Shown here: positions 18,478 to 33,941 of the stretch, piece by piece
Position numbering within the stretch: the stretch's first letter is position 1
Layout of the letters: the number at the start of each line of letters is the position of its first letter
NCBI RefSeq assembly: GCF_014855515.1
Contig: NZ_JACYFK010000004.1
Span: forward strand, 124,001 to 188,000
Length of the DNA stretch: 64,000 nt
Direction: 5' to 3'
Source of the DNA: Euzebyella marina
Lineage (GTDB): Bacteria > Bacteroidota > Bacteroidia > Flavobacteriales > Flavobacteriaceae
The notes under the pieces: model-generated
Told to the model about the DNA's origin: nothing
The model's input: the letters and a program-made list of their open reading frames with translations, nothing else
Databases searched by the model: none
Program-made: the position numbers and the translations under genes

Positions 18478-18603
18478 GCAGTCGAACTACTGATTTCTCC
18501 ATTATCCCATTAGTGGAATAGCTTTTGAGAACCTTAGAGCACAAATGAAAAGATATATTACCAATGGGTGGCTCCATTAGTATTTCATCATAAAAAGAAT
18601 AAA

Positions 18604-21600
18604 ATGAGCATTTTAAATTCGGTACTGAAAATATTCGTAGGTGATAAGTCGAAGAAAGACGTTAAAGAACTACAACCTATACTTGATAAAATAAAATCTT
18701 TTGAAAAAGAACTGGAGGGTATCAGTCTTGATGAACTTAGAGACAAGACCAATACCTTTAAGTTGAAGATCGCAGAAGACATTAGCGAGATAACCGCAAA
18801 AATAAATGCTCTTGAAGAAGAGGTAAAGGTTTCAGAAGATATCGATAAGAACGAAGAGCTATATTCAGAAATCGATAAACTAAAAGAAGAAGCCTACACT
18901 ATTACCGAAAAAACGCTCAACGACATCTTACCTGTAGCCTTTGCCGTAGTCAAAGAAACCGCAAAACGTTTTGCCAACAATTCTACCTTAACGGTTACCG
19001 CTTCAGAATTTGACAGACACTTATCGGGTACCAAAAGTTATGTTACGCTAGATGACGACAAGGCCATTTGGAACAATTCTTGGGATGCGGCAGGTAAAGA
19101 AGTAACTTGGGACATGGTTCACTACGATGTACAGCTCATAGGCGGTATTGCACTTCACCAAGGAAAGATTGCCGAAATGCAAACAGGGGAAGGTAAAACG
19201 TTGGTAGCTACCCTACCCCTCTACTTAAACGCATTGGCCGGTCATGGTTCGCATTTGGTAACCGTAAACGATTATCTGGCAAAAAGGGATAGTGCCTGGA
19301 TGGCCCCCATTTTTGAATTTCATGGTCTCTCGGTAGATTGTATCGACCACCACAGACCTAATTCAGCAGGCAGAAGGGCTGCCTACAATGCAGATATTAC
19401 TTATGGTACCAACAACGAATTCGGTTTTGACTACCTACGTGATAATATGGCCCATACCCCTAAAGATTTGGTACAAAGGCCACACCATTTTGCCATTGTT
19501 GATGAGGTAGACTCAGTGTTGATCGATGACGCCAGAACACCGTTGATTATTTCCGGGCCTGTTCCTGAAGGCGATAGACACGAATTCAATGAACTTAGAC
19601 CTAAAGTAAGCGATATAGTCAACAAACAACGCCAACACTTAACAGGCGTTTTGGCAGAAGCCAAAAAGTTGATTGCATCCGGAGATACCAAAGAAGGCGG
19701 GTTCTTATTGTTAAGGGTCTATCGCGGACTTCCAAAAAACAAAGCACTTATTAAGTTTTTAAGTGAAGAAGGCATCAAACAGTTATTGCAGAAAACAGAG
19801 AGTTTTTATATGCAAGACAACAACCGTGAAATGCCGAAGGTTGATGAAGATCTTTTATTCGTAATCGATGAAAAGAACAATCAAATTGAATTGACCGATA
19901 AAGGGGTCGATTACATTTCTGGGGCCCAAGACCGTGATTTCTTCGTAATGCCCGATATAGGAGCCGAAATTGCCAAAATAGAAAGCCAAGATCTAGAAGT
20001 CGAAAAAGAAGCAGAGCTTAAAGAAGAGCTTTTTAAAGAATTTGGCGTTAAGAGTGAACGCATTCATACCATGACCCAGTTATTGAAGGCCTATACCCTT
20101 TTTGAAAAGGATGTAGAGTATGTGGTTATGGATAATAAAGTAATGATCGTTGATGAGCAAACCGGCCGTATTATGGACGGTAGACGTTACTCAGATGGTC
20201 TACACCAGGCAATCGAGGCAAAAGAGAATGTAAAGATCGAAGCTCTTACCCAGACATTTGCTACCGTTACTTTGCAGAACTACTTTAGAATGTACAAGAA
20301 ACTGGCAGGTATGACCGGTACGGCAGTTACCGAAGCTGGTGAGTTCTGGGAAATATACAAGTTGGACGTAATGGAAATTCCGACCAACCGCCCCATTGCC
20401 CGTGAAGATAGAAACGACCTTATTTACAAAACAAAAAGGGAAAAATATAATGCCATTATCGAAGAGGTTACCAAGCTTTCTGAAGCTGGTAGACCGATTC
20501 TGATAGGTACTACTTCCGTTGAAATATCAGAATTGTTGTCTAGAATGTTGACCATTAGAAAGGTCAACCACAATGTTCTGAACGCGAAACTGCATAAAAA
20601 AGAAGCCGATGTAGTGGCAGAAGCCGGTAAATCAGGTGTTGTTACCATCGCCACCAACATGGCGGGTCGTGGTACCGATATTAAATTGACCGACAGTGTT
20701 AAAAAAGCAGGTGGTTTGGCAATCATCGGTACCGAGAGACATGATTCTAGACGTGTAGACAGACAGCTTCGTGGTCGTTCCGGTAGACAGGGTGATCCAG
20801 GAATGTCTCAGTTCTACGTTTCTTTAGAAGATAACCTTATGCGCTTGTTCGGTTCTGATAGGGTTGCCAAAATGATGGATAAGATGGGCCTAGAAGAAGG
20901 TGAGGTCATTCAGCACTCAATGATGACCAAATCAATTGAAAGAGCGCAAAAGAAAGTCGAGGAAAACAATTTTGGAGTACGTAAGCGTCTTCTAGAATAT
21001 GATGATGTGATGAACGCCCAACGTGAAGTTGTTTATAAAAGAAGGCGTCATGCCCTTCAAGGTGAGCGATTAAAAGTTGATATTGCGAACATGGTGTTCG
21101 ATACATGCGAAACCATTACCGAAACAAATAAGGCGGCAGGTGATTATAAGAATTTTGAGTTTGAGCTTATCAAATACTTTTCGATTACCTCTCCTATAAC
21201 AGAGGAGGAATTCAATAAAATAGGAGTTCAAGACATTGCTTTGAAAGTCTACGATTCTGCCTATCAGCATTACCTAGAAAAGATGGAGCGAAATGCTTCC
21301 ACAGCTTTCCCGGTAATCAAAAAAGTATACGAAGACAACTCGAATAAGTTTGAGCGAATCGTTGTTCCGTTTACTGACGGAATCAAAACATTGAATGTGG
21401 TAACGGACCTTCAAGGTGCCTACGAATCAAATGGAAAGCAATTGATCAACGATTTTGAAAAGAATATTACCCTTGCCATTATCGATGATTCATGGAAAAC
21501 TCATTTGCGTAAGATGGATGAGCTCAAGCAATCAGTACAATTGGCCGTTCATGAGCAAAAAGACCCTCTTTTGATCTATAAGTTCGAGGCTTTTGAACTT

Positions 21601-21966
21601 TTTAAAGGGATGATCGATAAGGTGAACAGAGAAGTGGTTTCTTTCCTTTTCAAAGGAGAATTGCCAAGTGGCAACCCTAATGAAATTCAGGAAGCACGTA
21701 ATGTACGTAAGCCAAAAGAAAACCTTCAGACCAGTAAAGAAGAAATTCCTAATAGTGATGAACTGGCTGCGCGAAACCGGGCCGCAGGTCAAACACAAGG
21801 TCAAAGACCACAGATAACGGAAACTATCACTAGAGAACGCCCTAAAATAGGCCGCAACGATCGGGTTACCATAAAAAATGTAATGTCAGGTGAAAGTAAA
21901 ACCGTAAAATACAAACAGGCAGAACCGCTCATCGAAAAAGGTGAATGGGTACTGACCGAAGAATAG
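18604..21966 (+). CDS. secA: Preprotein translocase ATPase SecA
   Basis: 1120 residues from the ATG at 18604. A GTG at 18568 would add 12 residues that lack family character, and 'MSILNSVLKIFVGDK' is the expected opening. Walker A 'MQTGEGKTLVATLPL', DEVD 'IVDEVDSVLIDDARTPLIIS', the preprotein cross-linking domain and 'TNMAGRGTDIKL' are all present, as are the helical scaffold and wing domains. It is longer than E. coli SecA (901) because of inserts in the first 450 residues, as usual in Bacteroidota. The C-terminal zinc-finger motif (CxC...CH) is absent; the protein ends 'EKGEWVLTEE'. It drives Sec export through SecYEG. Confidence 0.96.
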   Translation: MSILNSVLKIFVGDKSKKDVKELQPILDKIKSFEKELEGISLDELRDKTNTFKLKIAEDISEITAKINALEEEVKVSEDIDKNEELYSEIDKLKEEAYTITEKTLNDILPVAFAVVKETAKRFANNSTLTVTASEFDRHLSGTKSYVTLDDDKAIWNNSWDAAGKEVTWDMVHYDVQLIGGIALHQGKIAEMQTGEGKTLVATLPLYLNALAGHGSHLVTVNDYLAKRDSAWMAPIFEFHGLSVDCIDHHRPNSAGRRAAYNADITYGTNNEFGFDYLRDNMAHTPKDLVQRPHHFAIVDEVDSVLIDDARTPLIISGPVPEGDRHEFNELRPKVSDIVNKQRQHLTGVLAEAKKLIASGDTKEGGFLLLRVYRGLPKNKALIKFLSEEGIKQLLQKTESFYMQDNNREMPKVDEDLLFVIDEKNNQIELTDKGVDYISGAQDRDFFVMPDIGAEIAKIESQDLEVEKEAELKEELFKEFGVKSERIHTMTQLLKAYTLFEKDVEYVVMDNKVMIVDEQTGRIMDGRRYSDGLHQAIEAKENVKIEALTQTFATVTLQNYFRMYKKLAGMTGTAVTEAGEFWEIYKLDVMEIPTNRPIAREDRNDLIYKTKREKYNAIIEEVTKLSEAGRPILIGTTSVEISELLSRMLTIRKVNHNVLNAKLHKKEADVVAEAGKSGVVTIATNMAGRGTDIKLTDSVKKAGGLAIIGTERHDSRRVDRQLRGRSGRQGDPGMSQFYVSLEDNLMRLFGSDRVAKMMDKMGLEEGEVIQHSMMTKSIERAQKKVEENNFGVRKRLLEYDDVMNAQREVVYKRRRHALQGERLKVDIANMVFDTCETITETNKAAGDYKNFEFELIKYFSITSPITEEEFNKIGVQDIALKVYDSAYQHYLEKMERNASTAFPVIKKVYEDNSNKFERIVVPFTDGIKTLNVVTDLQGAYESNGKQLINDFEKNITLAIIDDSWKTHLRKMDELKQSVQLAVHEQKDPLLIYKFEAFELFKGMIDKVNREVVSFLFKGELPSGNPNEIQEARNVRKPKENLQTSKEEIPNSDELAARNRAAGQTQGQRPQITETITRERPKIGRNDRVTIKNVMSGESKTVKYKQAEPLIEKGEWVLTEE

Positions 21967-22136: not shown

Positions 22137-23342
22137 ATGGTTAGGCGTGCCAAAATAAACCTTAATCGATTGGGCAATAAAACTGATTTATTGCTAAAAT
22201 TCAATTATGCGTCTTCTATTTTGAGCTTTGTTTTGGGTGTAATCTGCACCTTCTTTATCAATGTAGAAGGCACTATACCTTTCATCTTTTTTTGGTACAC
22301 CGGTCTAAATCTTTTAAATGTTCTTCTCTTCAAATACCACCGTAATTTAACCGTTATGGCCATTTTTACCTCGATTTTATCTTGGGTAAGTACGGTCGTC
22401 ATTAGTTTGTTCAGTGGAGGAATTGAGAGTCCGTTCATTTTCGTTTTGGCCATTATAGTACTCGCGGGCTATGTTTCTACTAGACTATTCGGCAAGGTCT
22501 ATATGTACGTCATTTTATCAAGTATTCTGATCATTTTTTTCCTAGGCCATTTTTATCCTGAACATTTCCGTACTGAAATACCAATAGCATCAAAAGAAAT
22601 TTTTAGCCTCATTAGCCTCTTATTTGCTGTTTACCTACTCGGCTATATATTTGGCAAAAATCTTTTAGAAACCCATCGTTCGCTATTTCTATCTAAAGAA
22701 GAAATTGAGATTAAAATAAAGGAAAAAGAAAACCTTTTAAGTGAAGTGCATCATCGCGTAAAGAATAACCTTCAAACAGTTTCAAGTCTTCTAAATCTAC
22801 AGTCTAGAAATACAAAAAATGGTAAGGTCAAAGAACTGACCAAAAGCAGTCAGAATAGGGTTCTGTCAATGGCAATCATACATGAGATGCTTTATCTAAA
22901 ACAAAACATCTCTAAAATAGACTTTAGGTCGTATGTTCAAGGACTCACCGATTACCTCATCAAGTCTGCAAATGCCGACAAAAAAAATATAGAGGTACAA
23001 ATAGATATTCCTGATATACAACTCGGCATAGATACGGCCATACCACTTGGCCTATTAATCAATGAAGCGTTTACAAACTCAATAAAATACGCTTTTAACG
23101 AAACGAATAAAGGCCTTGTAGACATCGAACTGAAAAGAACCGATAATCCGGAAGAATATAAACTTAGAATTAGTGATAATGGTACTGGTTTCACCAAGCA
23201 AGTAAACATTAAGAAAGCCAAATCATTAGGCTTAAAGCTCATTCACAACCTGGCCAGACAACTTCATGGTTCAGCAAGACGTCTTAATACTGGTCACGGT
23301 ACCGGTTATGAAGTCATATTCAAGGATGTTCAAAAACATTGA
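22137..23342 (+). CDS. Six-TM sensor histidine kinase, HisKA_2 type (copy 1)
   Basis: 401 residues. Six hydrophobic helices occupy about 22-180, with almost no periplasmic loop. They include the signature 'SGGIESPFIFVLAIIVLAGY', shared with the copies at 23656 and 26478. A coiled-coil linker leads to the H box 'EVHHRVKNNLQTVSSLLNLQ' with the phospho-acceptor His at about 205, which is the HisKA_2 form. The ATPase domain has the N box 'GLLINEAFTNSIKYAF' and G box 'DNGTGFTKQ'. No response regulator is adjacent. The compact multi-helix sensor suggests a membrane-level or short-peptide signal, but the ligand is unknown. Confidence 0.85.
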   Translation: MVRRAKINLNRLGNKTDLLLKFNYASSILSFVLGVICTFFINVEGTIPFIFFWYTGLNLLNVLLFKYHRNLTVMAIFTSILSWVSTVVISLFSGGIESPFIFVLAIIVLAGYVSTRLFGKVYMYVILSSILIIFFLGHFYPEHFRTEIPIASKEIFSLISLLFAVYLLGYIFGKNLLETHRSLFLSKEEIEIKIKEKENLLSEVHHRVKNNLQTVSSLLNLQSRNTKNGKVKELTKSSQNRVLSMAIIHEMLYLKQNISKIDFRSYVQGLTDYLIKSANADKKNIEVQIDIPDIQLGIDTAIPLGLLINEAFTNSIKYAFNETNKGLVDIELKRTDNPEEYKLRISDNGTGFTKQVNIKKAKSLGLKLIHNLARQLHGSARRLNTGHGTGYEVIFKDVQKH

Positions 23343-23655: not shown

Positions 23656-24888
23656 ATGATTAAAAGCAGTAAAATAGACCATCGAATATCCAACCAAACC
23701 AGGTTGCTAAAAAAGTTTATCTATAATTCTTCGGGCTTGAGCTTGGTTTTTGGCCTGATCTGTATGTTCGTACTTAGAATAGATGGGGTCGTTCCGACAG
23801 TATTCTTTGGTTTTTCCATTCTTAATTTATTAAACCTCGTTCATTTTAATACATATGGAAAATTGGCCCTTTCGGCGGTTGTTTCCGCTACACTTTCGTT
23901 TATAGGGGCATCTGCTATAACCTTGCTATCAGGAGGAATCAATAGCCCTTTCATTTTTGTTTTGATCATCATTGTTTTAGGAGGTTATGTGTCGGCTCGA
24001 CTGTTCGGAAAAATCTACTTGATAAGTACCGTAGTTGCCATATTGATTATCTATGGGTTGAGCGAGGCCGGAATCTACAAATCCATCAATGCTGTACCTG
24101 AAGCCTCTAGAGACCTTTTTGGTCTTCTTAGTTTACTTTTCTCGGTGTATATGTTGGGCGGTGTCTTCGGCAGGGATATTTTGAAGGCCCACCAGACCAT
24201 GAGTGACTCCAAAGGAAAAATAGAAAATAGAATTCTTGAGAAGGAAAGATTGTTACGTACGGTTCACCACCGTGTCAAGAACAACCTTCAGACCGTTTCC
24301 AGTCTTCTTAACCTACAAGCTAAAAACTCCACTAATGAAACAATAAAAGACTTGGTAATGAGCAGCCAGAATCGGGTGAACGCTATGGCCATGATTCATG
24401 AAATGCTCTATTTACGTGATAACCTATCGAAAATAGAGTTCAACTCTTATATAAAAGAACTGAGCGAATACCTCATCAAATCGACTCATAAAGAAAATAA
24501 AAATGTTGTCATAAATATTGACATTCCAGATTTGCGCCTTGGTATCGATACCGCTATTCCGTTAGGCTTATTGATCAATGAAGCGGTCACCAATTCGCTT
24601 AAATATGGTTTTGTCGAGAATATACAAGGCAAAATCGATATTAAGTTAGAAAAAGATGATTCTAACAAAACGTATCACCTAAGTATTAGTGACAATGGTG
24701 TGGGCTTCCCAAGAGACATTGAACTTCGAACCAGTACCTCATTGGGGCTTAAACTGATTCACAATTTGGCCAGGCAACTTAAAGGTTCGGTAAAAAGAGA
24801 TCTTTCAAAAAAAGGAACTAGTTATAATGTGCGTTTCAGAGAAATAACCGCCCCCTACCTTTCCGATAAAGAATTGAGGTCGTTCTAG
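23656..24888 (+). CDS. Six-TM sensor histidine kinase, HisKA_2 type (copy 2)
   Basis: 410 residues, with the same architecture as the copy at 22137: six membrane helices to about residue 180 with 'SGGINSPFIFVLIIIVLGGY', then H box 'TVHHRVKNNLQTVSSLLNLQ' (His about 204). The ATPase domain has N box 'GLLINEAVTNSLKYGF' and G box 'DNGVGFPRD'. Nearly identical kinase cores with more divergent helices point to duplication followed by sensor change. The C-terminus carries a short extra tail (about 12 residues) absent from copy 1. No partner regulator is adjacent; the next gene is an unrelated oxidoreductase. Confidence 0.85.
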   Translation: MIKSSKIDHRISNQTRLLKKFIYNSSGLSLVFGLICMFVLRIDGVVPTVFFGFSILNLLNLVHFNTYGKLALSAVVSATLSFIGASAITLLSGGINSPFIFVLIIIVLGGYVSARLFGKIYLISTVVAILIIYGLSEAGIYKSINAVPEASRDLFGLLSLLFSVYMLGGVFGRDILKAHQTMSDSKGKIENRILEKERLLRTVHHRVKNNLQTVSSLLNLQAKNSTNETIKDLVMSSQNRVNAMAMIHEMLYLRDNLSKIEFNSYIKELSEYLIKSTHKENKNVVINIDIPDLRLGIDTAIPLGLLINEAVTNSLKYGFVENIQGKIDIKLEKDDSNKTYHLSISDNGVGFPRDIELRTSTSLGLKLIHNLARQLKGSVKRDLSKKGTSYNVRFREITAPYLSDKELRSF

Positions 24889-26477: not shown

Positions 26478-27701
26478 ATGCCTAGGCAAAACAAAAGACA
26501 CATAGAAGAACGTTTCAAAGATAAAGCTAAGTTGGTCATTAAGGTCAATTACTTTACCTCTATATTTTCACTACTGTTCTTTCTTACCTGTATCTACATT
26601 TTAAAGATAACCGTAGTCATACCTTATGTATTTCTCATTTTCGGAATACTGAATCTGCTGAATACATTTCTTTACAAATACCATAAAAACCTTACCCTTA
26701 CCTATAACATCGTATCGATTATGACCTTGGCCGGTGCCAGTATCATAACTCTATATAGTGGGGGTATTAATAGTCCCTTCATTTTTGTACTCGCATTGAT
26801 TGTTGTGGCCGGCTATGTGACCACTAAGTCTTACGGCACTATATACCTGAATCTCAATCTTTTGATAATTGTACTCATTTACTCTCAAAGCGTAGCAGAT
26901 TTCAGTTTTGTCACTAATGTGGTACCTGAGAATTCTAGAAATCTTTTTGCACTACTAAGCGTTCTTTTCTCAGTTTATTTATTGGGAGGTGTTTTTGGGA
27001 AAAACCTTTTACACGCCCATCATAATCTTTATAAAACAAAAAGCGAGCTTGAAGAAAAAATTCACGAAAAGGAAACATTGATCAAAGAGGTTCATCACAG
27101 GGTTAAAAACAACTTACAGACCGTTTCAAGCCTTTTAAGCCTTCAATCGCGCAATATAGCCGACAGGGAGGTCAAAAATCTTTTAAAGAGCAGTCAGAAC
27201 CGGGTTATCTCAATGGCGATGGTACACGAAATGCTGTATTTACGCGAAGATCTCTCTAAAATAGAGTACCGCTCGTATGTGCAAGAACTTGCCGAATACT
27301 TAATCAGATCAATCAAGGGAACAAGCAGTAATATTACCTTAGATATTGATATACCCGATTTAAAGCTTAACATCGATACGGCCATACCTTTGGGCCTACT
27401 CATCAACGAGGCGGTAACCAATGCCCTCAAGTACGGTATAGTTGATGAAAATAAAGGAGAAATACATATTCAATTAAGCAAAGACGAGAACAATGAATTT
27501 CTTCTTCAGATAGGTGATAACGGAATCGGCTTTCCTGAAACGGTAACTCACAAAACCTCTAATAGTTTAGGTCTAAAATTGATTCACAATCTTGTTCGAC
27601 AGCTGCAGGGAAGTATTAAAAGAGATTTTACTAAGAAGGGCACCCACTACATCGTTAAGTTCAAGCACATAAAGAACCAAATGGCCCCGGTAACCGCTTA
27701 A
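26478..27701 (+). CDS. Six-TM sensor histidine kinase, HisKA_2 type (copy 3)
   Basis: 407 residues. Six membrane helices with 'SGGINSPFIFVLALIVVAGY', H box 'EVHHRVKNNLQTVSSLLSLQ' (His about 206), N box 'GLLINEAVTNALKYGI' and G box 'DNGIGFPET'. It is the third member of the series and lies directly before the small secreted protein genes, which are convergent to it. Like the others it has no adjacent response regulator, so its output partner must be encoded elsewhere. Domain calls are secure; the signal is unknown. Confidence 0.85.
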   Translation: MPRQNKRHIEERFKDKAKLVIKVNYFTSIFSLLFFLTCIYILKITVVIPYVFLIFGILNLLNTFLYKYHKNLTLTYNIVSIMTLAGASIITLYSGGINSPFIFVLALIVVAGYVTTKSYGTIYLNLNLLIIVLIYSQSVADFSFVTNVVPENSRNLFALLSVLFSVYLLGGVFGKNLLHAHHNLYKTKSELEEKIHEKETLIKEVHHRVKNNLQTVSSLLSLQSRNIADREVKNLLKSSQNRVISMAMVHEMLYLREDLSKIEYRSYVQELAEYLIRSIKGTSSNITLDIDIPDLKLNIDTAIPLGLLINEAVTNALKYGIVDENKGEIHIQLSKDENNEFLLQIGDNGIGFPETVTHKTSNSLGLKLIHNLVRQLQGSIKRDFTKKGTHYIVKFKHIKNQMAPVTA

Positions 27702-27853: not shown

Positions 27854-28111
27854 TTAGGCCAGTTTAGACCTATTATATTTGGTGGTAAAAGTTAATTCTT
27901 TTTTTATTCTTGAATTCTTTGACTTATAAAGACGAGCTATACCTTTTGGGCTATTAACTTGAGCCTTCTCAAAAGATTCAAGATTGTCAGAGCTATCAAC
28001 CAAAACAATATCCATTTTAATAACGTCAACTTTAACATCGTGTGTTGGTATTTTAGCAGAAGCTTGAAATCCTAAAAACAATACAAAAAATAAGGTAGTA
28101 ACAGTTTTCAT
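27854..28111 (-). CDS. Small secreted protein, ARLYKxxNxRxKK family (member 1)
   Basis: 85 residues with a Sec signal ('MKTVTTLFFVLFLGFQASA', cleavage after Ala-Ser-Ala). The mature part is about 66 residues: an acidic middle and a basic C-terminus 'ARLYKSKNSRIKKELTFTTK' ending 'KLA'. This C-terminus is shared with the genes at 28391 and 30628. Member 1 is the most divergent and lacks the conserved leader of the other two. No Cys and no known domain. Expected to be periplasmic or released. I know no described function. Confidence 0.7.
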   Translation of the reverse strand: MKTVTTLFFVLFLGFQASAKIPTHDVKVDVIKMDIVLVDSSDNLESFEKAQVNSPKGIARLYKSKNSRIKKELTFTTKYNRSKLA

Positions 28112-28330
28112 AAGTAATATTTGGGTACTACTAAGTAACCGCTCATTTACTGCTTAAGAAAAAAGGTCACGTTAAACGACCCTATTTTTCGCCATGGTGA
28201 AAAAACTGGGTTAAAGTGCTGATTTTCTTCGATTACCGTTTTTGAGCGATACAACGTCACATCTAAGTTTTTGACAGTTAATCGAGAGGTTTCCCGGAAT
28301 AGAAGAGAAGGTTTATCACCCATGAGAAAT

Positions 28331-28360
28331 AAAAAAAGCCACCCATGGGTGGCTTTTTTT
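28331..28360. terminator. Perfectly palindromic 30-bp terminator
   Basis: Seven A, GCCACCC and its exact complement through seven T form a perfect palindrome centred at 28345/28346. It lies 31 bases past the stop of the small secreted gene at 28391 and can work in both directions. Confidence 0.9.
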
Positions 28361-28390
28361 GGTTAGGGGCATTCCTGAATTTAAAAACAC

Positions 28391-28627
28391 TTAAGCCATT
28401 TTAGCTTTATTTCTTTTAGTTGAGAAGGATAATTCTTTTTTAACACGTGCATTATCTCTTTTATAAAGACGGGCAACTTCATATTTTCCAATCTCAACTT
28501 TTTTTTTGATTTCAATATTCGTTACTACAGTCATCTCAACGGTATCAACTTTAGCTTCATCAGCATTTTGAGCTTGAGAAGTGAACCCGATAAGAAAAAC
28601 AAAAATTAAAGTTGCGATAGTTTTCAT
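28391..28627 (-). CDS. Small secreted protein, ARLYKxxNxRxKK family (member 2)
   Basis: 78 residues from the ATG at 28627. An upstream in-frame ATG at 28672 would add 15 residues in front of the signal and lies inside the conserved leader, so it is rejected. Signal 'MKTIATLIFVFLIGFTSQAQ' is followed by an acidic middle and the conserved basic tail 'VARLYKRDNARVKKELSFST' ending 'KMA'. Very close to the protein at 30628 in both signal and tail; the middle differs most. The 5' leader is conserved with that gene. Function unknown. Confidence 0.75.
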   Translation of the reverse strand: MKTIATLIFVFLIGFTSQAQNADEAKVDTVEMTVVTNIEIKKKVEIGKYEVARLYKRDNARVKKELSFSTKRNKAKMA

Positions 28628-28740
28628 GACTGTAAGTTTTATATAATTAAAACTCCACAGACCCCATTTCACGGGGTTTCGGTTCGTTCAACGAGATTAA
28701 AAACTCGTTCAAATGAAAAACTACGGATGAAGTGCAAAAA
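28628..28740 (-). promoter_or_regulatory. Structured 5' leader of small secreted gene, copy A
   Basis: The 113 bases before the ATG are nearly the same as those before the gene at 30628. Three potential hairpins are kept in order. AACGAG/CTCGTT pair at 28690-28695 and 28704-28709. ACCCC/GGGGT pair at 28661-28665 and 28673-28677. An AGTTTTA/TAAAACT stem lies just before the start. Similarity fades beyond about 28745. This suggests a conserved RNA leader or promoter-leader unit. Confidence 0.55.
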
Positions 28741-28873
28741 ACTACCGATAAATGTATTCGCCCTTGCTGACCCCAAATCGGATTTAAGTGTATTTAATCT
28801 GATTTTTTAATCGATAGGCATCCTAACTTTCTTCGCTATTATATAACTTACTACCGTTTTATACTAAATACCA

Positions 28874-30631
28874 TTGACCTTTCAACTAACCAATACAAGT
28901 ATCGCCATCGTCGGAGTAGGTCCAAGAGGTCTCTATGCTGTCGAGCAGCTTTTCAATAAGTTCTCGAATCTTTCACCTGAGAGCACTATTCATGTAACCT
29001 TATTTGAACCTTCGGTTTACGCAGGTTCTGGAAACACCTGGAGGGTAGACCAACCTGATAGCAATTGGCTCAATATTTCCGAAAGGGCTTTGCGCGACCT
29101 AAAGGGTCGTAAAAAGTTTTCTTTTAAAGGGGTTGTTGTATCATCCTTTCCGTCTTATAGTGAATGGAGCGATTCCGAAAAAAAATCGAATACTGACTAC
29201 TATCCTCCCAGAAAAAAACTTGGGGCATACCTTAACGAACGGTTCAAAAGTTTTTCAAAGAATCTTTTAAAGACACCCTACCTCCATTTAAAGCCTTTAA
29301 AAATTGAAGATTTAGATTATGCCGATGGTCATTTTAAGCTGACCGATAGTAATGGCAACACTTTTCATTTCAACGAAGTATTGCTGACCATTGGTCATCA
29401 ACCAACAAATACTTCGAAAGAAATCTTGAAGTGGCAGCATCGTGCAGAAGAAACTTGCAAATGTACCTTGTATCCGGAGGCTTACCCAACCGAAAGATTA
29501 ATTAAGAGCAATAAGATTAGTTCTGATAGCAAGGTAGGCATTAGAGGTTTTGGCCTTTCTATGATAGACATCTTACGTGCCTTAACCTGTGACAGGGGAG
29601 GTAAATTTTTGCCGACAGATGATGATATTTATAAATACCGATTTGAGGGAAATGACAGAATACCTTCTAAAATAGTTCCTTTTTCGTTGGATGGACTCCC
29701 TCTAGTACCAAAACCTTTAGGTGAAAAAATTGATAATATCTATAGGCCAACACAAGAAGAGAAGAACCGATTTTTTGAATCCGTTCGAAAGGTGGCCCAG
29801 AATAAAACCGAGGTAGAAGGAAATCTATTTTTAATTGAGGCCATGGCGCCAATTGCGGTTAGGGTATACCTTGATTTTGAAGAAAAAAGAATGGATTGCC
29901 TTTCGAGCCGTAACGAACTATATGAAGTTGCTGTTACCTGGCTCAATGATGAAAATTATAAACATCGCTCTTTACTAAAGGCAGATACCCCTACCCTCGT
30001 TCTCATCGAAAAATATGTCTCCATGGCCCTCGACCTAGAGCCCATATCTTTTGATTATTGTATGGGTCAAGTATGGCGGCATTTGCAATCTCTTTGGTAT
30101 CAAGCTTTCTCACATTCTTCTTTACCACATGAAACCATAGCTTCAGTTATTAAGCTCCATGAGCGAATAAAAAGATACTCTTATGGCCCACCGATAGAAA
30201 GTATGCAGCAACTATTGGCTTTAATTGATGCAGGGATAGTCGATTTAAACTATTTAAAAGACCCTAAAGTAGAATTGGTTCAAGATGGATGGTCGCTTCA
30301 GAAAGAAAATCGAAAGGTAATAGTAGATGTAATGATCAACAGTGTTCTAGATTCACCGAAGGTATTGGAAGTTTCCTCTCCCTTGGTCGTCAATTTACTC
30401 AATCATGAACTCATAAAACCTGTTCATTCTGAATTAGGGATAGACACCTATGAGAATGCACTAGTGAAAAGGTCTGAAAACGATGAAAAAATTAGCTTGG
30501 CCGTATTGGGAAGATTGTCGAAAGGAAGCGTGGTAGGAGTAGATGCTATCTTAGAGTGCTTTGGAAAGAGAATTGAAGATTGGGCCGAAGGGGTATTAGA
30601 ACGTTTAGGTAACCGTAATACTGATTCTTAA
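28874..30631 (+). CDS. FAD/NAD(P)-binding protein (NAD_binding_9 type)
   Basis: 585 residues from a TTG start. The opening 'SIAIVGVGPRGLYAVEQLF' is a dinucleotide-binding fold with the 'GVGPRG' loop of this family, followed by 'PSVYAGSGNTWRVDQPDSNW', also family-typical. A second conserved element, 'VGIRGFGLSMIDILRAL', is the later nucleotide-binding site. No signal peptide, so cytoplasmic. The reaction is unknown; relatives are predicted flavin monooxygenase-like proteins. It is set between two nearly identical small secreted genes on the opposite strand, and its TAA overlaps the stop of the 30628 gene within a CTTAAG site. Confidence 0.75.
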   Translation: MTFQLTNTSIAIVGVGPRGLYAVEQLFNKFSNLSPESTIHVTLFEPSVYAGSGNTWRVDQPDSNWLNISERALRDLKGRKKFSFKGVVVSSFPSYSEWSDSEKKSNTDYYPPRKKLGAYLNERFKSFSKNLLKTPYLHLKPLKIEDLDYADGHFKLTDSNGNTFHFNEVLLTIGHQPTNTSKEILKWQHRAEETCKCTLYPEAYPTERLIKSNKISSDSKVGIRGFGLSMIDILRALTCDRGGKFLPTDDDIYKYRFEGNDRIPSKIVPFSLDGLPLVPKPLGEKIDNIYRPTQEEKNRFFESVRKVAQNKTEVEGNLFLIEAMAPIAVRVYLDFEEKRMDCLSSRNELYEVAVTWLNDENYKHRSLLKADTPTLVLIEKYVSMALDLEPISFDYCMGQVWRHLQSLWYQAFSHSSLPHETIASVIKLHERIKRYSYGPPIESMQQLLALIDAGIVDLNYLKDPKVELVQDGWSLQKENRKVIVDVMINSVLDSPKVLEVSSPLVVNLLNHELIKPVHSELGIDTYENALVKRSENDEKISLAVLGRLSKGSVVGVDAILECFGKRIEDWAEGVLERLGNRNTDS

Positions 30632-30864
30632 GCCATTTTAGCTCTATTATATTTAGTTGTAAAGGAAAGAGCTTTCTTAACTCGGGCGTTATCTCTCTTA
30701 TAAAGACGTGCTACTTCATATTTAACCGTCTTAAAAGTCTCAGTGATTTCTACTTCTGTCACAATGCTTTTTTCAATAGCATTTACTTTAACTTCGGTAG
30801 CTTTTTGAGCTTGAGAAGTAACTCCGATAAAAAGAACAAAGATTAAAGTTGCAATAGTTTTCAT
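30628..30864 (-). CDS. Small secreted protein, ARLYKxxNxRxKK family (member 3)
   Basis: 78 residues. Signal 'MKTIATLIFVLFIGVTSQAQ', acidic middle, conserved basic tail 'VARLYKRDNARVKKALSFTT' ending 'KMA'. It is close to member 2 along its length and shares its leader. Its stop overlaps the convergent stop of the FAD-binding protein gene by three bases. No Cys and no recognised domain. The repeated and conserved tail argues for a binding or processing function, but none is known. Confidence 0.75.
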   Translation of the reverse strand: MKTIATLIFVLFIGVTSQAQKATEVKVNAIEKSIVTEVEITETFKTVKYEVARLYKRDNARVKKALSFTTKYNRAKMA

Positions 30865-30977
30865 GACTGTAGATTTTATATATATAAAACTCTACAGACC
30901 CCATTCTACTGGGTTTCGGCTCGTTCAACGAGATTAAAAACTCGTTAAAGTGGCAAAGTTCGGATTAAGTGTAAAAT
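30865..30977 (-). promoter_or_regulatory. Structured 5' leader of small secreted gene, copy B
   Basis: Matches copy A (28628-28740) with the same spacing. AACGAG/CTCGTT are at 30927-30932 and 30941-30946; ACCC/GGGT are at 30898-30901 and 30911-30914. A TTTTATATATATAAAA stem lies before the start. Changes fall in loops or weaken single pairs while the stems remain. Confidence 0.55.
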
Positions 30978-31038
30978 TGTGCCGATTATCGTAATCTAGC
31001 CTGAATACACCTCAACGATAAATAGTGTATTTTAACCT

Positions 31039-31046
31039 TAACTTTG
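31039..31046 (+). promoter_or_regulatory. Candidate -7 element for the 61-aa membrane protein gene
   Basis: TAACTTTG matches TAnnTTTG; a start near 31053 would leave a leader of about 68 bases. No matching -33 element is visible. Confidence 0.3.
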
Positions 31047-31121
31047 GATACTTTACATTGGCCAAAAATGTCTTTTTGACTAAGTTCATCTTATTGATTA
31101 TTTTTTTCTACTTTTAAAACT

Positions 31122-31385: not shown

Positions 31386-33941
31386 TTATGATACTTCTTT
31401 TCTAAGTACTTCTAACGGTGGACTACTTAAAACGCTCTTATTGTTGAACAAGCCTATGGCCAAAACCAAAAGTGTAATGCTTGGGCCTACTATCAAAAAA
31501 GGAATCCATGATGGTATAAAAGCAGCTTTGAAGACCAATTGAGCTAGAAGAAAACTAGCAATCAGGGAAAGAAGAATTCCTAAGAAACTTCCCAAAAAGC
31601 CTAAATAAAAATACTCATAGGCATTTATTTTCAAAATTTGTCCGCTCTTAGCTCCTAAAGTACGCAACAACACACTTTCTTTTATTCTCTGATATTTACT
31701 GGTTCTAACAGATCCTATCAATACAATAATTCCGGTCAAAATACTGAAAAAAGCCATGAAGTTGATCACCCATGAAATTTTATCCAGAATGCCTTCCACT
31801 ATGGTTAAAACCTGACGTAAGTCAATAATAGATACGGTTGGAAACTGCCGAACCATTTGCTTCTGCAGCTCGGCTGAAGTTTTTTCGTTTTCAGCGTATG
31901 TGGTAACGACATGGAACTTGGGTGCGCTTTCCAGCACTTTCGAAGGAAAGATTATATTGAAGTTCAATTGCATTCTACCCCAATCTACAGTTCTAATGCT
32001 GGCTACTTGGGTTTCCATTAAAACTCCTTGGATATTAAAGGTAAGATTATCTCCGACCTCAACCTGTGCATCTCTAGCTACATTATCGGAAATTGAAATT
32101 GGCACAAGACCATCGCTTAATTCTTTACTTGGCCACTCCCCTTCCACAATACTTTCAGAAGCAATCAAAGAATCTCTATAGGTGACTCTAAATTCATGGT
32201 TCAACACCCAGTCATTGATGGTTGAAGTGGTGTCATTTCTAATATCGCTGGCATTTCTTTCCTTAATTTTTTGAACTCTCATGGTTACAATCGGAATATC
32301 ATTTAAAACGGATAGTTCTGACTTTTCTATACTCCTTTTAACATCCTCCGTCTGATTCGATTGAACATCCAAAAAAATTAGATTGGGCGATTCTTGCTTG
32401 TTCTCAAGAGTTGCTTTACCTATTAAAATGTCTTTTGTAAAATATAATGTACTGATTAGAAAAGTTCCGATTCCGATAGCTAATATCAAGACCAAAGTTT
32501 GATTGTTGGGCCGAAAAAGATTCAATAAACTTTGCCGTGCCGCAAACCCCCAACCTTTTGGAAAGTTTCGTTTGACGATTCTCATAAAAAATATGCCAAC
32601 GGCCACTAATATTGCAAACACGACAACAACCCCCAATAAAAAGTAGAAGGCAAAAGCAAGATTGTCGAGTAAATAAAAGGCGAAAAGAAATATGAAAACA
32701 ATGATAGCACCATAGATAAGGTAAACAACCCTTTTGGGAGGTTCAATACCTTTCTCTTGAACCCTAAGCACCTGCAAAGGCGAAACAAACCACGTACTTA
32801 ATAATGGAGATAGGGAAAAGAGGACCGACATAACCAAGCCTAAAACCAAACCTAATAATATGGGCCATATAGTGAAGGTTATTTCAATATCAAAAGGAAT
32901 TACTTCTCTCAGCAATACAGGAAAAAATTGCTGAAAACCAACCCCGAGGATGGCCCCAAACAAACCTCCGAACAAGCCCATAAAAGCAATTTGAATCAAA
33001 TAGATATAGAAGCTTTGCTTTCTTGTAGCTCCCAGACATTTTAAAACCGCAACAGATTGTAACTTCTCTTTCACATATATGTGCACGGAGCTGGCCACAC
33101 CTACCGAACCCAACAAAAGGGCTATGAACGCCACCAAATTTAAAAACTTACCGAAATTATCGTACCGCCGCCCAAGGCGCTGTCCGGTTGAGCTATGCGT
33201 ATCTAAATCAGCATTCTCAGCATCTAGAATAGGGTCTATTTTCTCATCCAATTCCTCCAAATCTTGTCCCGCATCGGCGACAAAGTAAAAATCATAATCT
33301 ATTCGACTACCTGTTTGAACCAAACCCGTTTTGGCGATGAATTCATAAGGAATCAAGACGGGAGGTGCAATTGAGGCGGTAAGACCTGTCGACCCTGGCG
33401 CTGAAATTAAAGCACCTTCAATGGGCAACCTTATATTACCGATAGAGATTGTATCGCCTTTTGAAAGCCCGAATTGAAGCATAAGGGTAGCATCGACCAA
33501 AGCACTATTGTTACCCTGGTATGAAGAAGCTGCTGATTGTGGGTTCGTTTCCAGTTCCCCATAAAAAGGAAAAGGCCCCTCAATACCCTTAATTCCGACC
33601 AATTTCGTTGAGTTTTGCTTCGGAAACAATGCCATAGATGGGAAGCTGATACTTCGAGCCTTTGCGCCGCCTAAAGAATCGATGATACCCTGAACCTTCT
33701 CGTTTGGCTCATGATTACTATCGATAACAAAATCAGCACCCATAAGGGCTTTCGATTGAGATCCTATATTCTGCTTCAGGTTTTCGCTAAATGATTGTAC
33801 CGCCACTACTGCAGAAATACCTAAAACGATGGAAGCCATAAAAAGCACCAATCTTTTAGTGCTGGCCTTACCGTCTCGCCAAGCCATTTTTAATAGCCAT
33901 TTCAAACGTACATTATCTTTCTTCCCCTTATTCATCTTCAT
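31386..33941 (-). CDS. ABC transporter permease, FtsX/YbbP type
   Basis: 851 residues. An N-terminal membrane helix is followed by a large periplasmic domain, then three helices with the FtsX core (about 270-390) and two further helices near 405-455. Another helix (about 480), a second periplasmic domain and a final three-helix FtsX core (about 735-840) complete it. The layout of two FtsX domains and about ten helices matches E. coli YbbP. It starts within the stop of the LolD-like ATPase gene (four-base overlap), so the two form one transporter. The divergent TesA-like gene recreates the tesA-ybbA-ybbP set. Substrate unknown; lipids or lipoproteins are suspected for this family. Confidence 0.85.
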   Translation of the reverse strand: MKMNKGKKDNVRLKWLLKMAWRDGKASTKRLVLFMASIVLGISAVVAVQSFSENLKQNIGSQSKALMGADFVIDSNHEPNEKVQGIIDSLGGAKARSISFPSMALFPKQNSTKLVGIKGIEGPFPFYGELETNPQSAASSYQGNNSALVDATLMLQFGLSKGDTISIGNIRLPIEGALISAPGSTGLTASIAPPVLIPYEFIAKTGLVQTGSRIDYDFYFVADAGQDLEELDEKIDPILDAENADLDTHSSTGQRLGRRYDNFGKFLNLVAFIALLLGSVGVASSVHIYVKEKLQSVAVLKCLGATRKQSFYIYLIQIAFMGLFGGLFGAILGVGFQQFFPVLLREVIPFDIEITFTIWPILLGLVLGLVMSVLFSLSPLLSTWFVSPLQVLRVQEKGIEPPKRVVYLIYGAIIVFIFLFAFYLLDNLAFAFYFLLGVVVVFAILVAVGIFFMRIVKRNFPKGWGFAARQSLLNLFRPNNQTLVLILAIGIGTFLISTLYFTKDILIGKATLENKQESPNLIFLDVQSNQTEDVKRSIEKSELSVLNDIPIVTMRVQKIKERNASDIRNDTTSTINDWVLNHEFRVTYRDSLIASESIVEGEWPSKELSDGLVPISISDNVARDAQVEVGDNLTFNIQGVLMETQVASIRTVDWGRMQLNFNIIFPSKVLESAPKFHVVTTYAENEKTSAELQKQMVRQFPTVSIIDLRQVLTIVEGILDKISWVINFMAFFSILTGIIVLIGSVRTSKYQRIKESVLLRTLGAKSGQILKINAYEYFYLGFLGSFLGILLSLIASFLLAQLVFKAAFIPSWIPFLIVGPSITLLVLAIGLFNNKSVLSSPPLEVLRKEVS

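Follow-up and report, generated by a model that had tools for sequence, protein, structure and literature searches.

The 64,000-nucleotide stretch of Euzebyella marina analyzed here (the window; assembly GCF_014855515.1, contig NZ_JACYFK010000004.1, positions 124,001 to 188,000 of the forward strand) carries three short minus-strand genes whose products combine a signal-type N-terminus, a variable middle and a nearly invariant basic tail. These genes belong to a family of Flavobacteriaceae, are preceded by an array of half-sites set at fixed distances from the start codon, co-occur across genomes with a membrane microprotein and with a type of histidine kinase, and have homologues in bacteriophages. 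It is tentatively proposed, from sequence comparison and one structure prediction, that they encode exported, largely disordered peptides which would bind an anionic polymer or an envelope protein through their tail, and whose array would be read by a LytTR-like regulator.

Reading of the open reading frames (ORFs) returned the three genes where the initial annotation had placed them, with products of 78 to 85 residues (Table 1). For gene 2, the ORF list extends to a GTG at 28672, upstream of the conserved start, which is the ATG at 28627. As read by eye from the alignment, all three proteins begin with a Sec-type N-terminus, MKT[IV].TL.FV...G....A[QK], and they share the previously described tail ARLYKxxNxRxKKxLxFxTK ending in K-L/M-A, with 29 of 85 columns identical. 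Cysteine is absent from the three proteins, as had been stated, and is found after residue 20 in one of 141 family members. The middle had been called acidic, which holds only in a mild form: its net charge is -3, -2 and -1 for genes 1, 2 and 3, and over the family middle and tail average -3.5 and +9.0, respectively (141 members scoring at least 90 and at least 70 residues long). In their own genome, the three copies, the only ones found there, give expectation values (E) of 8.5e-44 to 2.8e-40, far beyond what chance would produce, the next-best match being at 0.36. Gene 1 is, by its sequence, a member of a longer and more divergent subfamily.

Homologues bearing the conserved tail, whose absence from relatives would have spoken against a family, are frequent. 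A 21-member profile matched 88 of 397 Flavobacteriaceae genomes at E≤0.001; the 71 of them with E below about 1e-8 form the strong set to which the counts below refer, the 17 weaker ones being left uncounted. Over the loci examined, 175 distinct members were collected from 214 matches. Among 75 loci of named genomes (the best 80 of 299 matches), the family occurs in Zobellia, Pseudozobellia, Euzebyella, Maribacter, Arenibacter, Cellulophaga, Eudoraea, Robiginitalea, Muriicola, Kriegella, Ulvibacterium and others, some of which are genera known from seaweed and algal blooms. One to four copies are present per stretch and one genome has nine matches, these copy counts being lower bounds as the profile searches scored the best 13 to 16 first-look candidates per genome (397 genomes for the bacterial family, 345 for the class). 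In the class-level search, seven of 345 genomes besides the window's own gave matches (E 5e-6 to 9e-5), all inside profile positions 1-65 of 79 and taken as signal-peptide similarity. A profile of the tail alone, run over 198 genomes, retrieved just the genome of the window and one negligible 12-position match (0.0074), and a plasmid search did not find the family. In the genomes searched, no bacterial occurrence outside Flavobacteriaceae was found.

The tail is the most constrained part of these proteins. Residues R53, L54, Y55, K64, L66, F68, T70 and K71 are kept in 79 to 85 of 85 members (Y55 and F68 in 85, L66 in 84, R53 in 82), a pattern which fits the single shared partner suggested by the initial annotation. 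Pairwise ratios of nonsynonymous to synonymous substitution rates (dN/dS; 1586 non-independent pairs of 162 sequences) were 0.27 overall, 0.16 for the tail, 0.26 for the signal region and 0.35 for the middle, consistent with purifying selection acting on the whole family. With a consensus of about 27 residues (VARLYKxxNSRVKKALSFTTKRNKAKMA), the tail is a separable module, because it recurs alone, without signal peptide, in viral contigs (see below). The same annotation took the middle for a specificity region, a view which the data do not favor: this part varies in length, shows no positive selection and has no predicted structure, and identical protein copies lie at distinct places within four loci, which suggests that additional copies raise the dose and do not diversify specificity. 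The middle is more simply read as a linker, judging from its sequence and from the model. In the single AlphaFold2 prediction, made from an 85-row alignment, helices are placed only at 2-18 (the signal) and 57-66, with low confidence (mean predicted local distance difference test score 62.8, predicted template modeling score 0.23).

No known domain or characterized relative was identified, in line with what had been noted at first. None of the three window proteins reaches the cut-off of a Pfam or NCBIfam model; DUF3316, Herpes_BLRF2, MspA, T9SS_sortase_N and IscS gave weak matches below it, DUF3316 (PF11777) reaching 17.6 bits with gene 2 against a gathering cut-off of 24.4 and matching three of 85 members at E≤0.01. 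Among the 85 members, the best E was 5.5e-4 (Phage-tail_2) and no family was matched by more than three. No relative was found among solved structures, the best E being 0.19, in the signal region, with segments of ribosomal protein L24 at 0.47-0.65, and the PADLOC models of anti-phage defense gave nothing at E≤0.1 for eight proteins. Like cargo of the Type IX secretion system, the family combines a Bacteroidota host, a signal peptide and a conserved C-terminal segment, but its tail has only about 27 residues and is highly basic, and NCBIfam gave no sorting-domain match at E≤0.01 for the 85 members, one of which matched the PorU N-terminal model at 0.003. Weak matches were also obtained with phrog_26162, a 59-position phage family of unknown function, for the tail half of gene 1 (E 6.8e-5) and gene 2 (0.034), a signal-less viral contig ORF (0.0012) and a Cellulophaga phage ORF (0.029). 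In bacterial genomes its model retrieves gene 1 (2.6e-4) and some relatives' copies; gene 3 is nevertheless unmatched at E≤0.1, and in 60 relatives its matches are mostly unrelated ORFs at similar E. No description of the family was found in the literature searched, through an index without most subscription journals, and no curated functional family fits; the family thus still appears undescribed.

About 155 bp upstream of the family genes are strongly conserved between species. This region holds the half-site YTNANCS at up to six places, 19-21 bp apart and at fixed distances from the ATG: an inverted pair near -173 and -153, then four direct copies near -125, -104, -85 and -64. Out of 161 members with 300 nt of upstream sequence, 122 were retained after an 8-mer similarity filter and 96 after a stricter one. 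Among the 122, half-sites recur at 19-21, 39-40 and 60-61 bp; 83 pairs are 21 bp, 64 are 40 bp and 42 are 61 bp apart, vs 0.2, 0.2 and 0.3 expected, and opposite-strand half-sites peak at 20 bp (67, vs 0.3 expected on the first strand). Of the 122 upstreams, 99 have at least three occupied slots out of six and 23 have no more than two; three-slot occupancy was seen in none of 2440 mononucleotide shuffles. The array is a very clear multi-site promoter architecture and offers a direct handle on its regulator. A TTTTATATATATAAAA box conserved in the upstream alignment, located some 10 bp ahead of the gene 3 ATG, is likely the -7 region.

A profile of the array, R1, was built from 66 of the 96 upstreams; of the others, 16 lay beyond the first 80 and 14, mostly from divergent or longer members and including that of gene 1, were omitted by choice. 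In the genome of the window (150 of 1834 first-look candidates scored), R1 found genes 2, 3 and 1 at E 6.5e-32, 9.3e-32 and 3.2e-10, strong scores being limited to these three. The next places, at 0.0014 before a lipoprotein-like gene and at 0.005 within a YceI-like gene, were treated as unproven or due to chance. In the window, two three-site chains lie away from the family genes (about 231-291 and 33334-33398) and such a chain is also present in two of ten shuffled windows; a strict inverted-pair pattern gave 17 matches vs 10 for the reversed control pattern. A broad regulon is not supported by these scans.

Several array-like sequences were encountered elsewhere. In two same-genus relatives (L034:15596-15808, minus strand; L035:3316-3528, plus strand), the array stands directly before the ATG of a divergent 70-aa ORF (E 2e-7) with a signal-like start and a basic tail that is short and different from the family tail. 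A nearly palindromic pair, TCGATGAAATAAGTATTTGGTCGATTAA, is intergenic on contig 1 of the window's genome (L207, about 144212). A close relative of the array occurs at L177, L178, L179 and L180 (genomes G026, G031, G007 and G011), in the absence of strong family members; at three or more of these loci it adjoins a sixA-like phosphatase gene. After it comes a conserved stretch that contains CTTCCCTC or CCTCCCTC and, as seen by eye in three of the four, a small hairpin, with secreted or adhesin-like genes coming next in two genomes; this stretch is possibly a small RNA or leader and had no Rfam match. Across ten loci nothing reached the Rfam gathering threshold, the best match near family genes being at E 0.045 (29.8 bits vs a cut-off of 55).

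The spacing of the array points to response regulators of the LytTR type, whose operators are 9-bp repeats separated by a 12-bp spacer, i.e., 21 bp (PMC2766830, PMC6193735). The distances that recur in the array, 19 to 21 bp with further maxima at 39-40 and 60-61 bp, agree with this spacing. Systems in which such regulators control secreted peptides (AgrA, ComE, SilA, and HdrR/BrsR for bacteriocins) likewise have a small secreted product and 21-bp direct repeats upstream; they differ from the present family, which has up to six half-sites with the distal two inverted instead of one repeat pair just upstream of -35, a core TTNANCG, a Sec-type signal and no LytTR gene alongside, the 20 LytTR genes of the genome all lying elsewhere. 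By this analogy, a LytTR-like response regulator most likely binds the array.

In relatives, a similar array precedes a second, much smaller gene. In three of them, R1 matches (E 1.8e-5, 4.8e-5 and 2.3e-4) stand before an unannotated ORF of 29-33 codons encoding a MKxKTTxNDYLVYVFCAFCFLWSIYVLFF-like microprotein with apparently one membrane span. Its profile matched 52 of 397 genomes at E≤0.01, including 43 at E≤1e-4, and all 43 fall within the 71 genomes of the secreted family; of the nine weaker ones, one has the family and eight do not. For the 30 microprotein loci returned, upstream array scores have a median of 15.5, vs -10.2 for 350 same-locus control genes of at least 150 aa, family-promoter overlaps being skipped (P 2e-19), and exceed 8 in 18 of 30 vs one of 350. 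The microprotein gene is located elsewhere in the genome than the family genes, has no fitting Pfam or NCBIfam model (three copies scanned) and gave no phage match. It is a probable co-regulated companion of the secreted family on the basis of these comparisons. Family, array and microprotein match no functional model searched and have no counterpart in the literature retrieved, and what seems new is their combination. A second microprotein, MKxKDKLTY.YVAFN..FII.M.IFL, was also noticed at two loci near the array-driven one (L244:21-119 and L199:2307-2474, both on the minus strand).

Homologues of the family occur in phages. A tblastn search with gene 3 against 50,697 phage records gave eight matches at 49% identity, all in Maribacter phages of the Molly/Colly group, where the gene (Molly1_7/Colly1_6) is annotated 'hypothetical protein' and has a signal-type start. 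The Molly protein, used as query, weakly matched an ORF without annotation in five records of Cellulophaga phages (E 0.8, tail only); in phi13:1 and phiST, the two that were read, this ORF begins with a signal-like segment. These phage forms share signal-type start and tail with the bacterial family, but end in TKLC rather than K-M/L-A. Four uncultured viral contigs, two of them identical over the stretch, carry the tail on ORFs of 37-45 aa without signal peptide, of three kinds. With the bacterial profile, the Molly protein scores 57.5 bits, the Cellulophaga phage ORF 27.4 and the signal-less viral ORFs 38-43, shuffled sequences reaching at most 10.6 bits in 2000 shuffles each. Molly1_7 had no PHROGs match at 0.01. 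Some phage copies thus lack any annotation, and together they point to a role that matters in infection and could be tested in cultured Maribacter and Cellulophaga phage-host pairs.

Two copies of CGTTTAACG stand upstream of the Molly/Colly gene at a distance of 21 bp, their cores at -105 and -84 falling on two of the host slots; both slots are filled in 128 of 200,000 shuffles. R1 gave no match to Molly/Colly phages. Within the first 100 kb of Molly_1, a single further plus-strand pair of the strict motif CGTTNANCG was seen. It precedes a metalloprotease gene (matrixin, 25.5 bits), and its 21-bp repeat sits inside a 104-bp similar promoter region (L261:3678-3785), so that the repeat pair may simply be a phage promoter type. 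The accessible part of the Molly paper mentions this metallopeptidase and contains nothing on the tail peptide (PMC8776804). On one uncultured viral contig (L265:2418-3087), a metalloprotease-like ORF (matrixin, 22.4 bits vs a cut-off of 24) lies divergent beside the signal-less tail ORF, an adjacency which echoes the Molly neighborhood.

Next to the family genes of the window stand three membrane histidine kinases, preceded by secA (Table 1). The order secA, kinase(s), family is repeated at L034, L035, L036, L037, L040 and L041; L038 ends before the kinases, which there start some 5 kb past the second family copy, and L039 is a second family locus in the genome of L040. Kinases of this cluster type were present in 27 of 84 stretches, many of which are short or overlapping. 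At E≤1e-10, 66 of the 397 genomes contain their sensor region, and 59 of these belong to the strong set of the family. It carries GGI[NES]SPF, resembling the quinone motif GGXXNPF of the redox kinase RegB (PMC8191878). These kinases are nevertheless of the HisKA_2 type, S replaces N in the motif, and the RegB equivalog model gives E 0.052; neither the exact heptapeptide nor a match to the curated model was found, and they were not assigned as RegB quinone-sensing kinases. No neighboring gene cluster is present in more than 41 of the 84 stretches, and no transporter is common to all; an ATP-binding cassette (ABC) ATPase is found in 41, an MsrA-like gene in 38 and an M23-like gene in 25, the last two labels resting on Pfam for the window copies. 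The kinases are regarded as candidate inputs, not as a required part.

From these data the following mechanism can be proposed. The three genes would encode Sec-exported, largely disordered peptides of the cell envelope or medium, whose working part would be the basic tail, with a short amphipathic stretch and sequence-specific binding, and whose middle would serve as linker. The tail would bind one conserved partner, either an anionic polymer (lipopolysaccharide, exopolysaccharide, extracellular DNA) or an envelope protein. One dedicated promoter type, to which a LytTR-like response regulator would bind cooperatively at the half-sites, would drive the copies and, in relatives, the membrane microprotein of about 30 residues, with copy number setting the dose. 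The tail would have been acquired by phages, two lineages of which have it with a signal peptide, presumably so as to mimic or occupy its partner when they infect. A wider version, possible but doubtful, is that host and phage share a module, in which a six-site operator would drive dosed exported peptides and the microprotein as a circuit of envelope control or protection, and in which the tails of several unrelated phages would take over or blunt this circuit, being exported in two lineages, retained in the cell in three kinds of contigs and, in Molly/Colly, set behind a two-site operator with the spacing of the host one.

Several observations weigh against this mechanism. The signal-less phage forms, which fit it least well, speak against an exclusively extracytoplasmic target. 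On the regulator side, a same-strand chain of at least three sites is absent from the 3-kb loci of all 20 LytTR genes, and the array core differs at several slots from the LytTR consensus; another regulator could therefore be involved. By the sensor-region test, kinases were not detected in 12 of the 71 family genomes, one of which, G327 (locus L058), fills three of six array slots, so that the kinases cannot be the sole input. As for the microprotein, 28 of the 71 family genomes lack it at E≤1e-4, the array score is 8 or below in 12 of 30 upstreams, and the copy of the window's own genome (contig 2, 185291-185377) has a score of 0.3, vs -0.4 for the best of ten shuffles. Moreover, every co-occurrence figure is inflated by the shared ancestry of the clade.

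CpxP, MgrB and SafA are small-protein brakes or connectors, and the peptide and the microprotein could similarly act on envelope proteins or kinases, providing feedback to an envelope or redox response. The shared promoter type, the co-occurrence of the single-span microprotein with the family in every genome with a clear match, the adjacent kinases and the recurrent ABC-ATPase, MsrA-like and M23-like genes agree with such a role; this reading is nonetheless rather unlikely, as the microprotein gene lies elsewhere in the genome and is missing from many family genomes, and the neighbors may merely be the conserved chromosome context of the clade. A peptide pheromone, in which the exported protein would be cut, its tail sensed by the neighboring kinases and an autoinduction loop closed through the LytTR-like array, as with AgrA, ComE or SilA, seems improbable. 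LytTR regulators are often tied to autoinducing peptides (PMC2766830), kinase and family are neighbors in several genera besides co-occurring in 59 genomes, and the phage copies could be signal mimics. Yet pheromones of the Agr, ComC or SilCR kind have a double-glycine or AgrD-type leader and a dedicated exporter, in place of which a Sec-type N-terminus is seen; in this genome no strong array lies beside the kinases and no site chain beside the LytTR genes, some family genomes have no such kinase, and the sensor motif suggests sensing of a quinone, not of a peptide. Phage forms devoid of signal and a tail almost unchanged across genera, unlike pherotypes, further argue against it.

The remaining alternatives concern the tail itself. 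A cationic peptide that has an acidic pro-part and is released against other bacteria, as an antimicrobial or in competition, would account for the opposite charges of middle and tail and for small, multicopy, signal-bearing products. The tail charge of +8 is as expected of such peptides, but the best tail segments have a negative mean hydrophobicity (-0.34 to -0.65) and a moderate hydrophobic moment, and the conservation of R, Y, L, F and T exceeds the need of a lytic peptide. In addition, no neighbor is constant enough to be an immunity gene, PADLOC gave no match and the signal-less phage forms are intracellular, making this explanation quite improbable. Binding of nucleic acids, the exported form acting on extracellular DNA in the matrix and the phage forms on DNA or RNA inside the cell, would unify exported and signal-less forms and suit a tail of +8 or +9 with conserved aromatics; with no relative among solved structures and the C-terminal cysteine of the secreted phage forms left unexplained, it is given only a slim chance. 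An exported peptide binding an anionic polymer or envelope protein through its tail is the reading tentatively favored here.

Table 1. Positions in the window of the family genes, their arrays and adjoining features.
Feature	Position	Strand	Basis and remarks
Family gene 1	27854..28111	-	85 aa; ORF, alignment, E 2.8e-40
Family gene 2	28391..28627	-	78 aa; ORF, E 8.5e-44
Family gene 3	30628..30864	-	78 aa; ORF, E 5.0e-43
Basic tail, gene 1	27854..27940	-	last 28 codons + stop; net +8
Basic tail, gene 2	28391..28477	-	conserved; net +8
Basic tail, gene 3	30628..30714	-	conserved; net +8
Gene 1 array	28152..28293	-	3/6 slots; R1 E 4.4e-12; not in R1 model
Gene 2 array and promoter	28625..28812	-	4/6 slots; R1 E 8.9e-34 (sequence among R1's 66)
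Gene 3 array and promoter	30862..31049	-	5/6 slots; R1 E 1.3e-33 (sequence among R1's 66)
TTTTATATATATAAAA box before gene 3	30874..30889	-	sequence; upstream alignment
Perfect 30-bp inverted repeat with A and T runs, downstream of gene 2	28331..28360	-	direct reading
secA, start of conserved neighborhood	18568..21966	+	Pfam SecA_DEAD E 1.8e-114; synteny
HisKA_2 membrane histidine kinase	22137..23342	+	Pfam HisKA_2 E 5.7e-29
HisKA_2 membrane histidine kinase	23656..24888	+	Pfam HisKA_2 E 8.7e-26
HisKA_2 membrane histidine kinase adjoining family genes	26478..27701	+	Pfam HisKA_2 E 1.7e-28; SGGINSPF motif

The inverted repeat downstream of gene 2 is a likely terminator, and genes 1 and 2 are therefore probably separate transcripts. 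Between genes 2 and 3 sits a plus-strand gene (28874-30631) for a 585-aa FAD/NAD(P)-binding protein (NAD_binding_9), the end of which overlaps gene 3 by four bases on the opposite strand; this gene is also found in two same-genus relatives.

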